Of a stretch of 64,000 nt of DNA, positions 40,471-48,511 are shown piece by piece. Source of the DNA: Longispora albida DSM 44784. GTDB taxonomy: Bacteria; Actinomycetota; Actinomycetes; Mycobacteriales; Micromonosporaceae. The stretch spans positions 457,655-521,654 of the forward strand of contig NZ_KB903835.1 of NCBI RefSeq assembly GCF_000379825.1, given 5' to 3'. The notes under the pieces were generated by a model. That model had not been told where the DNA came from and did no database searches. It was given only the letters and a program-made list of their open reading frames with translations. The position numbers were made by a program, and so were the translations under genes. The number at the start of each line of letters is the position of its first letter. The first letter of the stretch is position 1.

Positions 40471-40563
40471 CCGCTGAGCGGAAATCTGACAAGCAGAACA
40501 AAAGCCCGTGTACAACCAGTACACGGGCTTTTGTTCTGCGCAGCTCAGATTTTCGCTCAGCGG
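40471..40563. terminator. Long bidirectional hairpin between TPR gene and hmgA
   Basis: A 93-nt near-perfect hairpin. The inner 21-bp stem (40493-40513 with 40519-40539, 5-nt loop AACCA) is perfect and contains A- and T-runs suited to termination in both directions. Outer parts CCGCTGAGCG and AAATCTGA also pair across a 3/5-nt asymmetric bulge. The outer right arm overlaps the last codons and stop of hmgA. Confidence 0.85.
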
Positions 40564-41720
40564 GTCGGCAGCTTGCTCCACGTCCAGGCGTAGTCGGTGT
40601 CTTCGACAGCTAGTCCGGGCTCGCAGAGGTCGAGGGGGCGGAAGGTGTCGACCATGACGGCGAGTTCGTCGAAGAAGTCGGCGCCGATGGCCCGCTCGGG
40701 GGCTCCCGGCTGGGGGCCGTGGGTGAAGCCGCCCGGGTGCAGGGAGATCGAGCCCTGGCCGATGCCGGAGCCGCGCCGGGCCTCGTAGTTGCCGCCGGTG
40801 TAGAACAGCACCTCGTCGGAGTCGACGTTGTGGTGGTTGTAGGGCACCGGGATGGCCTCGGGGTGGTAGTCCACCTTGCGGGGCACGAAGGAGCAGATCA
40901 CGAAGTTCGGCCCCTGGAACGTCTGGTGCACCGGCGGCGGCTGGTGGATCCGGCCGGTGATCGGCTCGAAGTCGCGGATCGAGAAGGCCCACGGGTACAT
41001 GTGGCCGTCCCAGCCGACGACGTCGAACGGGTGGTGGGCGTAGGTGAACTTCGTCCAGCCGGTGCGGTGCTGGACGTAGACCTCGACGTCCTCGCCGTCC
41101 TCGATCAGGGGCTCGGAGGGGCCGCGGACGTCACGCTCGCAGTACGGGGAGTGCTCCAGGAACTGGCCGCGGACCGACAGGTAGCGCTTGGGGGGTCCGA
41201 TGTGGCCGGTCGCCTCGACGACGAGCATCTTGACCATGCCGTCGGGCACGACGCGGTAGATGATCGAGGTGGGGACGATCAGGTAGTCGCCCGCCGTGAA
41301 CTCCAGGACGCCGAACGTGGTCTCGAGGCGGCCGGAGCCCTCCTCGATGTACAGGCACTCGTCGCCGATCGCGTTGCGGTACAGGACGGAGGTCTGGCTG
41401 GACGCGACGTAGGAGATGCGGCAGTCGGCGTTGGCCAGCATGTGCTGCCGGTCGAGGATCGGGTCGGCCTGCGAGCCGAGCTTGGCCGTCACCAGGTGGC
41501 GCGGCTTGAGCGGCTTGTTGGGGATCCGGCTCCAGGCCTGCGGCTCGTACTCCTCCGCGGCCACGATCGCCGTCGGCAGGTAGCGGTGGTAGAGCAGCGA
41601 GGAGTCGCTGGAGAAACCCTCCTGGCCCATGAGCTCCTCGGCGTACAGGCTGCCGTCGGGCTGGCGGAACTGGGTGTGCCGCTTGTGCGGAACCTCGCCA
41701 ACACTCCGGTAATAGGGCAT
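40557..41720 (-). CDS. hmgA: Homogentisate 1,2-dioxygenase
   Basis: A 387-aa non-haem iron enzyme that opens the homogentisate ring to maleylacetoacetate. The cupin-like core includes DECLYIEEGSGRLETTFGVL, DYLIVPTSIIYRVV, FDVVGWDGHMYPWAFSIRDF, VPYNHHNVDSDEVLFYTGG (metal His and Glu) and SLHPGGFTHGPQPG (further metal His). GGAGG at 41726-41730 sits 5 nt before the ATG. Somewhat shorter than E. coli-type and human enzymes (about 440 aa) but typical of actinobacterial members. Divergent from the unknown gene and fahA, with an inverted repeat between them. Confidence 0.93.
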   Translation of the reverse strand: MPYYRSVGEVPHKRHTQFRQPDGSLYAEELMGQEGFSSDSSLLYHRYLPTAIVAAEEYEPQAWSRIPNKPLKPRHLVTAKLGSQADPILDRQHMLANADCRISYVASSQTSVLYRNAIGDECLYIEEGSGRLETTFGVLEFTAGDYLIVPTSIIYRVVPDGMVKMLVVEATGHIGPPKRYLSVRGQFLEHSPYCERDVRGPSEPLIEDGEDVEVYVQHRTGWTKFTYAHHPFDVVGWDGHMYPWAFSIRDFEPITGRIHQPPPVHQTFQGPNFVICSFVPRKVDYHPEAIPVPYNHHNVDSDEVLFYTGGNYEARRGSGIGQGSISLHPGGFTHGPQPGAPERAIGADFFDELAVMVDTFRPLDLCEPGLAVEDTDYAWTWSKLPTR

Positions 41721-41734
41721 CTCAACCTCCGCTT

Positions 41735-41749
41735 GTCCGATAATCGGAC
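41735..41749. promoter_or_regulatory. Inverted repeat upstream of hmgA
   Basis: GTCCGAT-A-ATCGGAC, a perfect 7-bp dyad 14 bp before the hmgA start. A related half, CTTGTCCGCTA, occurs at about 41763-41773. Probably the operator for the divergent homogentisate genes. Confidence 0.6.
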
Positions 41750-41787
41750 GCCATGCCTAGTACTTGTCCGCTATTTGTAGCGTCGCC

Positions 41788-41793
41788 TAGAGT
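41788..41793 (+). promoter_or_regulatory. Leaderless -10 (TAGAGT)
   Basis: TAGAGT lies 7 nt before the GTG at 41801 that starts the uncharacterised gene. Confidence 0.55.
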
Positions 41794-41800
41794 ATGGGAT

Positions 41801-42613
41801 GTGTCAACGTCTGCTGTGCCACCCCTGCTCCAGGGCCTGATCGACGACGCGGCCGTGTTCCCGCCCGGCAACGCGCCGCTCCCCGCTGCCATCATCGCGC
41901 ACCGTGAGCACCGAGCCGCCTGGTATGCCAGGTTTGTCGGGCCGCTGCTCGTGAAGGCCTCGACGGCCGCCTCCGGTGAGCTGCGCGAGCTGGTCGAGCC
42001 TGCCGAGCGGTTCCAGGTCGGGCTGATCGGCGACACCGGGCCGGAGGGGCTGAGCCTCGCGACGACCGAGCTGGAGCGGCACGGGATCGTCGTCCGGCAG
42101 TACGAGGTCGCGGTGCCGGTCGGCCAGCTGCGAGGCTTCCTGGCCGACGAGCGCCCGGCCGGGATCACCGCCTACGTCGAGCTGTCGCGCTCCCAGGACT
42201 GGCGGGCCGGGCTGGACCTGCTGGCCGGGTCGGCCGTGATGCCGAAGTTCCGGACGGGCGGGCTGTCCGCCGAGCTGTTCCCCAGCGTCGGGGAGCTGGC
42301 GGACATCCTGGTCGCCTGCCGTGAGCGCGGGCTGCGGGTCAAGCTGACCGCCGGCCTGCACCACGCCGCCCGGCACGCCGACCCGGTGACCGGATTCACC
42401 CACCACGGGTTCCTGAACATCCTGGCCGCGTGCCTGGAGCCGGGGCGGGAGGCCGAGCTGCTGGCCGTGACCGACCCCGAGGAACTGGCCGGCGTCGTCC
42501 GGCCGTACCTCGGGACGGAAAGGCAGCTCTGGGTGGGTTTTGGGACCTGTAGCGTGACAGAACCGCTCGAAGACGTCGTCAAGCTGGGCCTCGCGGAGGA
42601 GGAGAAGAAGTGA
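41801..42613 (+). CDS. Uncharacterised protein coupled to fahA (candidate maleylacetoacetate isomerase)
   Basis: A 270-aa soluble protein I cannot place in a named family. Likely conserved blocks: LIDDAAVFPPGNAPL at the N-terminus, GPLLVKAS, SAVMPKFRTGGLSAELFPS, RGLRVKLTAGLHHAARH, TGFTHHGFLNILAA and LWVGFGTCSVTEPLEDV. The alternating pattern with Lys-containing strand ends and a His pair resembles a TIM-barrel enzyme. Its GTG start is set by the leaderless -10, and its stop overlaps the fahA GTG. In the pathway HmgA - isomerase - FahA, the isomerase is the only missing step, and no glutathione-transferase-type enzyme is nearby; actinobacteria lack glutathione. Isomerase function is inferred from context only. 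Confidence 0.75.
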   Translation: MSTSAVPPLLQGLIDDAAVFPPGNAPLPAAIIAHREHRAAWYARFVGPLLVKASTAASGELRELVEPAERFQVGLIGDTGPEGLSLATTELERHGIVVRQYEVAVPVGQLRGFLADERPAGITAYVELSRSQDWRAGLDLLAGSAVMPKFRTGGLSAELFPSVGELADILVACRERGLRVKLTAGLHHAARHADPVTGFTHHGFLNILAACLEPGREAELLAVTDPEELAGVVRPYLGTERQLWVGFGTCSVTEPLEDVVKLGLAEEEKK

Positions 42614-43761
42614 GCTGGGTACCTGGGGCTGATGGACCGTGGGGCGTGCACAACCTCCCCTACGGCGTCGCGGACGGCCGGATCGTGGTGAGGATCGGGG
42701 ACTATGCCCTCGACCTCCAGTCGGTGCTGGCCCTGGAGGCGCTGCGCGCCCCGGTGCTCAACGACTTCATGGCGCTGGGCCCCTCGGCCTGGGCCGCCGT
42801 CCGGGAGCGGATCGTCGAGCTGCTGAGCAGCGAGGAACACCGCGCGGAGGTCGAGCAGCACCTGAGCCCGCTGGCCGGCAAGACGATGAGCCTGCCGTTC
42901 ACGGTCGGCGACTATGTGGACTTCTACTCGTCCGAGGACCACGCGACGAACGTCGGGAAGCTGTTCCGGCCGGGTCAGCCGCCGCTGCTGCCGAACTGGA
43001 AGCACATCCCGATCGGGTACCACGGGCGCAGCGGGACCGTTGTCGTGTCCGGCACCGAGGTCAGGCGGCCCAGCGGGCAGCGCTCGGCCGACGGCGGGCC
43101 GGTGTTCGGGCCGTCTGTGCGGCTGGACATCGAGGCCGAGGTCGGCTTCGTGGTGGGCGTGCCCTCGGTGATGGGCGAGACGGTCGGCGTGGACTCCTTC
43201 GCCGAGCACGTCTTCGGCGTGGTGCTGGTCAACGACTGGTCGGCGCGGGACATCCAGGCGTGGGAGTACGTGCCGCTGGGCCCGTTCCTCGGCAAGTCCT
43301 TCGCGACCTCGGTGTCGGCGTGGGTGACGCCGCTGGCGGCGTTCGCCCGGGTCGCGGCTCCGGCTCAGGACCCGGTCGTCCTGCCGTACCTGGCGGAACG
43401 GGAGCGCTACACCTTCGGCCTTGACCTGGAGGTGGACTGGAACGGGTCCGTCGTGGCCCGGCCGCCCTTCGCCGGCATGTACTGGACGCCGGCCCAGCAG
43501 CTGGCGCACATGACCGTGAACGGGGCCAGCGTGCGGACCGGTGACCTGTTCGCCTCCGGCACGGTGTCGGGTCCCGAGCGCGGACAGGTCGGCTCGTTCC
43601 TGGAGCTGACGTGGTCGGGGGCCGAGCCGGTCAAGCTGGCCGACGGCAGCACCCGGACCTTCATCGAGGACGGGGACACCGTGACGCTGACGGCCACCGC
43701 GCCGGGCGCGAACGGCCAGGCCCTCGCGCTGGGCGAGGTCACGGGGCGCGTCGTCGCCTGA
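42610..43761 (+). CDS. fahA: Fumarylacetoacetase
   Basis: A 383-aa hydrolase that splits fumarylacetoacetate into fumarate and acetoacetate, the last step of tyrosine degradation. N-terminal SH3-like domain (WGVHNLPYGVADGRIVVRIG, LDLQSVLAL) then the FAH fold: VGDYVDFYSSEDHATNVGKL (metal Asp and catalytic His), PIGYHGRSGTVVVSG, LDIEAEVGFVVG (metal Glu), VFGVVLVNDWSARDIQAWEY (metal Asp), PLGPFLGKSFATSVSAWVTP. GTG start overlaps the stop of the unknown gene by 4 bp. A terminator hairpin follows about 100 bp downstream. Confidence 0.95.
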   Translation: MSWVPGADGPWGVHNLPYGVADGRIVVRIGDYALDLQSVLALEALRAPVLNDFMALGPSAWAAVRERIVELLSSEEHRAEVEQHLSPLAGKTMSLPFTVGDYVDFYSSEDHATNVGKLFRPGQPPLLPNWKHIPIGYHGRSGTVVVSGTEVRRPSGQRSADGGPVFGPSVRLDIEAEVGFVVGVPSVMGETVGVDSFAEHVFGVVLVNDWSARDIQAWEYVPLGPFLGKSFATSVSAWVTPLAAFARVAAPAQDPVVLPYLAERERYTFGLDLEVDWNGSVVARPPFAGMYWTPAQQLAHMTVNGASVRTGDLFASGTVSGPERGQVGSFLELTWSGAEPVKLADGSTRTFIEDGDTVTLTATAPGANGQALALGEVTGRVVA

Positions 43762-43971: not shown

Positions 43972-45048
43972 TTACAGCGCTGCTTCGGCGACCTTGAGCA
44001 TGGCGTCGTTCTCCGCCGGGGTGCCGATCGTGATCCGGACGCCGTCGCCCTGGAACGGGCGGACGATGACGCCGCGCTGCTCACAGGCCTGGGCGAAGGC
44101 GAGGGACTTGTCGCCCAGCGGCAGCCAGACGAAGTTGGCCTGGCTGTCCGGCACGTCGACGCCCAGGGCGCGCAGGCCCTCGGTGACCCGGCCGCGCTCG
44201 GCGACCACCAGGTCGACCCGGCGCTGCATCTCGTCCTTGGCGGACAGTGCGGCCAGGGCACCGGCCTGGGCTGCGGCGCTGGTCGAGAACGGCGTGACGC
44301 ACTTGCGGACGGCGTTGGCCACCTCCGGCGCGCCGTGCAGCCAGCCGATCCGCAGGCCCGCCAGGCCCCAGGCCTTGGACAGGGTGCGCAGCACGACCAC
44401 GTTCGGGCGGTCACCGAAGGCTTCGAGGGCGTCGGGCACCTCGGGGTCGGTGACGAACTCGCGGTAGGCCTCGTCGAGGACGATCAGCACGTCCTTCGGC
44501 GCGGCGTCGAGGAACGCGGTCAGCTCGGCGCGGCGGAGGAACGTGCCGGTCGGGTTGTTCGGGTTGCAGACGAACACGATGCGGGTCTTCGGCGTGATCG
44601 CCTTCAGCATCGCGTCGAGGTCGTGGCCGTGGTCGGGCGTGTTCGGCACCTTGACGCTGGTGGCGCCGGCCGTGGCCGCGATGATCGGGTAGGCCTCGAA
44701 GGACCGCCACGAGTACAGGACCTCGTCGCCCGGCAGGCAGGTCGCCTTGACCAGGTGCTCGGCGAGCGCGACGGAACCACAGCCGGTCGCGACCGAGGCC
44801 GGGTCCACGCCGTACACCTCGGCGAACTTGGCGCGCAGCTCCAGCACGCCCATGTCCGGGTAGCGGTGGGACTGCGTGGCGGCCTCGGTGACGGCCTCCA
44901 CCACGCCGGGCAGCGGGCCGTAGGGCACCTCGTTGCTCGCCAGCTTGATCGCCTCGGGGATACCCAGCTCACGAGCCAGGTCCGCCGGGGAACGACCGGG
45001 AACGTAGTTCGGCAGCGCCTCGAGGTCCTCGCGGGTCAGCCGGGTCAT
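43972..45048 (-). CDS. HisC-like / aromatic aminotransferase
   Basis: A 358-aa class I/II PLP enzyme. Motifs: KLASNEVPYGPLPGVVEAV, ATGCGSVALAEHLVKA, VFVCNPNNPTGTFLRR, VLIVLDEAYREFV and the PLP lysine in LRTLSKAWGLAGLRIGWLHG, ending RITIGTPAEND. The fold is that of histidinol-phosphate aminotransferase, but a true histidine operon is not here; surrounded by hpd, hmgA and fahA it more likely converts tyrosine or phenylalanine to the 2-oxo acid (Pat-type). AAGGAG precedes the ATG, which overlaps the RDD gene stop (ATGA). Name kept open between HisC and Pat. Confidence 0.85.
   Translation of the reverse strand: MTRLTREDLEALPNYVPGRSPADLARELGIPEAIKLASNEVPYGPLPGVVEAVTEAATQSHRYPDMGVLELRAKFAEVYGVDPASVATGCGSVALAEHLVKATCLPGDEVLYSWRSFEAYPIIAATAGATSVKVPNTPDHGHDLDAMLKAITPKTRIVFVCNPNNPTGTFLRRAELTAFLDAAPKDVLIVLDEAYREFVTDPEVPDALEAFGDRPNVVVLRTLSKAWGLAGLRIGWLHGAPEVANAVRKCVTPFSTSAAAQAGALAALSAKDEMQRRVDLVVAERGRVTEGLRALGVDVPDSQANFVWLPLGDKSLAFAQACEQRGVIVRPFQGDGVRITIGTPAENDAMLKVAEAAL

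Positions 45049-45882: not shown

Positions 45883-48511
<2,629 letters not shown>

Follow-up and report, generated by a model that had tools for sequence, protein, structure and literature searches.

A candidate maleylacetoacetate isomerase from an apparently undescribed family, encoded directly upstream of fahA in Longispora albida and other bacteria

Which protein carries out the maleylacetoacetate isomerase step of the homogentisate pathway in Longispora albida is the question raised by the tyrosine/homogentisate gene cluster in the window, as the whole 64-kb stretch of DNA analyzed here is called. The initial annotation had read this cluster as encoding an aminotransferase, Hpd, HmgA and FahA, with no glutathione-dependent isomerase among them, and had proposed the uncharacterized gene between hmgA and fahA for the missing step. 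Pfam and NCBIfam profile matches bore out the cluster content, which accounts for all the pathway steps other than the isomerase:

40557–41720, minus strand: hmgA, short divergent homogentisate 1,2-dioxygenase (Pfam HgmA_N and HgmA_C over cut-off)
41801–42613, plus strand: gene of interest, candidate maleylacetoacetate isomerase of 270 aa, apparently undescribed family, predicted (beta/alpha)8 barrel
42610–43761, plus strand: fahA, fumarylacetoacetase (TIGR01266, 426.7 bits against a cut-off of 375.3), in GTGA overlap with the gene of interest
43972–45048, minus strand: HisC-type aminotransferase (HisC-like match), probable tyrosine aminotransferase of the cluster
45883–47040, minus strand: hpd, 4-hydroxyphenylpyruvate dioxygenase (TIGR01263, 432.5 bits), with its ATG at 47040
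47161–47628, plus strand: Lrp/AsnC-type regulator, divergent from hpd (identity and start assigned from the sequence)

The HmgA of the window (387 aa) scored 53 bits against the TIGR01015 cut-off of 510.75, so that this short form is missed by the equivalog cut-off; a similar short form occurs in clusters of Priestia and Kovacikia. No match to MaiA (TIGR01262) was found anywhere in the L. albida genome, and no GST N-terminal domain in the genome exceeded its cut-off. Twelve DinB/MDMPI_N places in the genome scored above cut-off, none of those listed being on the contig of the window, and the genome has a DeoC of its own.

Direct reading of the sequence confirmed the 270-aa ORF, which begins with a GTG, contains the blocks KFRTGG, KLTAGLHHA and THHGFLN in its protein, and ends in a TGA (42611–42613) that overlaps the GTG of fahA (42610–42612) within the 4-bp GTGA. 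The gene is conserved as well as real, a search of genome contigs having yielded 227 relatives; the 80 that were kept are all actinobacterial according to the titles of their records. The protein had no match in Pfam or NCBIfam, its comparison by sequence with the PDB gave chance matches only, and no member of the 30-sequence alignment A2 had a convincing Pfam match. Additional members, 25–42% identical, were found on plasmids of Rhodococcus, Pseudonocardia, Streptomyces, Tsukamurella, Nonomuraea, Priestia (Bacillota) and Kovacikia (Cyanobacteriota), those of the Bacillota and Cyanobacteriota being known from plasmid records only, and a search of phages found none with a relative. Where the plasmid matches carried an annotation it was “hypothetical protein”, the exception being one spurious match (E = 3). 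The accessible literature on maleylacetoacetate isomerase in relation to mycothiol, actinobacteria, Rhodococcus and glutathione-independence, in which subscription journals are thinly represented, does not describe the family, which is apparently undescribed.

Two putative control elements lie between hmgA and the gene:

41735–41749, unstranded: candidate operator, the perfect 15-nt palindrome GTCCGATAATCGGAC, between hmgA and the gene
41764–41793, plus strand: promoter of the gene, with –35 TTGTCC (41764–41769), an 18-nt spacer and –10 TAGAGT (41788–41793)

The –10 element ends 7 nt before GTG 41801, and the promoter motif precedes the gene in 55 of 80 other loci, at a distance of 6–8 nt from the start codon in 45 of those; given this spacing, the transcript is probably leaderless. 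An upstream ATG at 41753, which would give a longer protein, is an unlikely start because the promoter lies 3′ of it and would place the transcription start at about GTG 41801. Divergence from hmgA over a shared operator had also been proposed; the gene is indeed divergent, and the candidate operator is a palindrome kept in the hmgA/gene gap of many Micromonosporaceae. Since palindromes of this size are common enough in the window (15 in 64 kb), the case for an operator rests on that conservation.

Conservation with fahA across genomes, one of the checks suggested by the initial annotation, was examined in 197 actinobacterial genomes. The gene was present in 11 of these, and 22 had FahA over cut-off; every gene-bearing genome is among the 22 (hypergeometric 2e-12, ignoring kinship), and the 11 are spread over nine families. 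In each of them, the coordinates place the gene immediately upstream of fahA. The broader profile A2 retrieved the same 11 genomes, with E up to 3e-77, and gave nothing between 3e-77 and 0.04 that could be a distant copy in the FahA genomes lacking the gene. MaiA (TIGR01262) exceeded its cut-off in none of the 197. Because half of the FahA genomes (11 of 22, namely seven of genus g6, probably Streptomyces, together with G017, G179, G031 and G166) are without the gene, it is no universal need of FahA-bearing genomes; the few neighbors scanned in them included no evident isomerase gene.

Clusters of hmgA and fahA without the gene exist in G017, G179 and G031, and would fit an account in which FahA or the gene product hydrolyzes maleylacetoacetate directly to maleate and acetoacetate, the barrel protein assisting or disposing of a by-product; PMC4457819 cites a report of a maleylacetoacetate hydrolase in some Bacillus species. 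Such hydrolysis is improbable here, however, as the FahA of the window scores over the equivalog cut-off and is thus of the fumarylacetoacetate type, and as hydrolysis by FahA would not account for a partner gene that is never found without FahA. In the loci L111, L101 and L102, from other actinobacterial families, hmgA-fahA clusters have neither the gene nor an evident isomerase nearby. HmgA-like genes were also seen beside an FAA-hydrolase-family gene scoring far below the FahA cut-off (G173:C155 and G134:C86, and also in G001, G067 and G189), and these pairs perhaps belong to another ring-cleavage pathway or to a direct hydrolase route.

Comparison of 81 loci showed that fahA adjoins the gene in most, with linkage apparently lost in 21. 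Twelve genomes in which the first-found copy is not beside fahA were followed up; all have FahA elsewhere (ten over the cut-off, two at 375 and 348 bits), and seven of the 12 carried a second, fahA-linked copy, so that the apparent loss of linkage is partly paralogy. The protein occurs in two forms, one with T183, H187 and C250 and the other, seen in Actinoplanes, in which these positions hold Ala, Arg and, for the most part, Ala or Val. Seven genomes have both, with the T183-H187-C250 form on the fahA-linked copy; in other Actinoplanes, the Ala/Arg form is the only copy and is placed in the hmgA-fahA operon, which suggests that the enzyme does not depend on C250. The Actinoplanes copies away from fahA (L037, L047, L048 and L051) still have an upstream promoter, TTGTCC/TAGGTT, which suggests that the pathway and these unlinked copies are under common control.

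The adjacency of the gene to fahA was found in three phyla, Actinomycetota, Bacillota (Priestia) and Cyanobacteriota (Kovacikia). In Priestia, the genes form one run in the order hppD-gene-fahA-hisC-hmgA, hisC again being part of the cluster and lying between fahA and hmgA, while in Kovacikia the gene overlaps fahA, with HPPD and a short HmgA nearby. Plasmid clusters with fahA linkage also occur in Rhodococcus, Pseudonocardia, Streptomyces and Tsukamurella, and an Lrp/AsnC gene neighbors hppD in the Priestia and Tsukamurella clusters. As for maiA, it adjoins fahA in four of the eight proteobacterial fahA plasmid clusters that were read (Paracoccus AK26, Acinetobacter, Rhizobium and Sphingobium), overlaps it by 4 bp in the Paracoccus and Sphingobium plasmids, and is not within 3.5 kb on either side of fahA on the plasmids of Dinoroseobacter, Tropicibacter, Sphaerotilus and Paracoccus TOH. 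A profile scan found the gene of interest in none of these eight clusters, and there was no proteobacterial plasmid match to it at E up to 10. A VOC family gene was observed near or overlapping fahA on the Acinetobacter (L143, 5431–5994) and Sphaerotilus (L147, 2887–3444) plasmids.

This distribution bears on whether the protein acts instead on some other pathway-tied compound, as a tautomerase, in repair of succinylacetone-like by-products, or as an aldolase of a side route. Half of the FahA genomes manage without the gene, and the natural structures that best match one model over its full length are aldolases (see below), both of which agree with such a role; the operon place beside fahA in three phyla, in the same neighborhood that is used by maiA in several proteobacterial clusters, nevertheless points to a core step, and a side function of this kind is considered quite improbable.

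The gene is the best candidate for the missing isomerase because it lies directly before fahA, which maiA often adjoins in other bacteria. With moderate confidence, the genomic context favors the 270-aa protein as the maleylacetoacetate isomerase of the homogentisate pathway, replacing the GST-type MaiA without being its ortholog. The role first suggested has good contextual support from FahA co-occurrence without exception, from fahA adjacency in three phyla and from maiA standing beside fahA in several proteobacterial clusters, whereas the reason then offered for it, that the use of mycothiol makes a different fold necessary, does not hold up. DinB-fold enzymes serve mycothiol users, one of them performing the analogous step, their domain is well represented in the L. 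albida genome, and the family is also present in Priestia and in the cyanobacterium Kovacikia; cyanobacteria make glutathione. A DinB-fold, mycothiol-dependent enzyme encoded elsewhere might instead isomerize maleylacetoacetate, as related enzymes do with maleylpyruvate, the gene then having another role in the pathway; the 12 DinB/MDMPI_N places and the g6 genomes with fahA and without the gene are in line with this. Such a division of labor is unlikely, though: none of the listed DinB places shares the contig of the window, the annotations of the Gram-positive plasmid clusters (Priestia, Rhodococcus, Pseudonocardia, Streptomyces and Tsukamurella) list neither a DinB nor a GST gene, and it leaves unexplained why the family is confined to FahA genomes and occupies the position next to fahA that maiA has in several proteobacterial clusters.

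Structure prediction, another of the suggested checks, gave a confident and complete (beta/alpha)8 barrel for the window protein (AlphaFold2, pLDDT 93.1), unlike the GST fold, and the same architecture for a 41% identical ortholog (pLDDT 92.9). The putative isomerase therefore appears, from these models, to be built on a different protein fold. Foldseek returned no match below E 0.001 for the window model, with mixed barrels on top. One of those near the top was an enolase-superfamily barrel, which was set aside: the metal site of that superfamily expects an acid on strand 3, and the expected acid is not conserved in alignment A1. For the ortholog model, a de novo design came first and deoxyribose-phosphate aldolase (DERA, DeoC) was best among natural full-length superpositions, with TM 0.58–0.64 by target for structures 3ng3, 1mzh and 5c6m (3ng3_C: prob 1.00, TM 0.64 by target, rmsd 5.0).

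Across 99 sequences of the family, D15, E102, E127, R151, P161, G185, G203, G248 and P255 are invariant, and K149, R191, H202 and N206 are found in 98. Position 181 is Lys in 79 and Arg in 20. DSSP on the window model places D15 on strand 1, E102 on strand 4, E127 on strand 5, K149 and R151 on strand 6, and K181 on strand 7, with H202 and N206 after strand 7 and C250 at the end of strand 8. A universal catalytic cysteine was considered and rejected, C250 being present in 56 of the 99 sequences and absent from the sole operon copies of Actinoplanes. None of the hhalign settings tried gave a significant match to the DeoC alignment (probability about 1% or less). When a full-length profile alignment was forced, the match again not being significant, D15, E127, K149 and K181 paired with the strand 1 Asp, the strand 5 Glu, the Schiff-base Lys and the strand 7 Lys of DeoC. 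This register may be regarded as a lead, and is no test of kinship.

If the protein is the isomerase, HmgA would make maleylacetoacetate, the 270-aa protein would convert the cis double bond of this compound to the trans form, and the resulting fumarylacetoacetate would be cleaved by FahA, whose reading frame follows and overlaps that of the gene. How the bond would be turned is less certain than the activity itself. By analogy with class I aldolases, K149 on strand 6 could form a Schiff base with one keto group of the diketone, conjugation would lower the order of the C2–C3 bond and make rotation possible, and hydrolysis of the Schiff base would release the product, with neither a thiol cofactor nor a universal cysteine needed. 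This mechanism is speculative, and an obligatory K149 is weakened by one fahA-linked member, L113, in which the residue is Ala. The full proposal of an undescribed family of thiol-free cis-trans isomerases across Actinomycetota, Bacillota and Cyanobacteriota, with an aldolase-like barrel and a lysine Schiff base in place of glutathione or mycothiol addition, is accordingly offered as tentative and somewhat doubtful.

The family provides a concrete candidate isomerase for many actinobacteria, for Priestia and for a cyanobacterium; if confirmed, it would close a gap in the pathway and show that a reaction known to be thiol-assisted can also proceed by another chemistry. In the accessible parts of the literature, the isomerase gene of this pathway lacks an assignment in several Gram-positive bacteria: B. 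anthracis has no identifiable isomerase gene and the fate of its maleylacetoacetate is said to need more analysis (PMC4457819), the cluster figure of the R. ruber genome paper shows hmgA and hmgB and no isomerase (PMC6498646), and the isomerase step of Streptomyces rests on annotation. The family leaves the B. cereus group and the sampled chromosomes of g6 (probably Streptomyces) unexplained.

Three known systems are comparable to different extents. The mycothiol-dependent maleylpyruvate isomerase of the DinB/MDMPI type (PF11716) does an analogous cis-trans step in actinobacteria, and a DinB-fold enzyme of this kind is named in the accessible text of PMC6498646; the 270-aa protein, in contrast, has no PF11716 match and is predicted to be a barrel, whereas DinB proteins are four-helix-bundle metalloproteins according to the available part of PMC10950700. 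With DeoC (TIGR00126) and the class I aldolases, it has in common the predicted (beta/alpha)8 barrel, and DeoC structures gave the top Foldseek matches of the ortholog model among natural full-length ones; in the forced, non-significant alignment, the Lys residues of strands 6 and 7, the strand 5 Glu and the strand 1 Asp line up with those of DeoC. It differs from them in that profile similarity is not significant (probability about 1% or less), that DeoC was not among its NCBIfam matches, and that 20 of 99 family members have Arg in place of the strand 7 Lys. From MaiA of the GST zeta class (TIGR01262), the protein differs in sequence, no similarity having been found, in domain content, with neither a TIGR01262 nor a GST domain match, and in its predicted barrel as opposed to the GST fold; the two are alike in the reaction proposed for the barrel protein, in their place beside fahA, and in having the HmgA and FahA genes in the same cluster.
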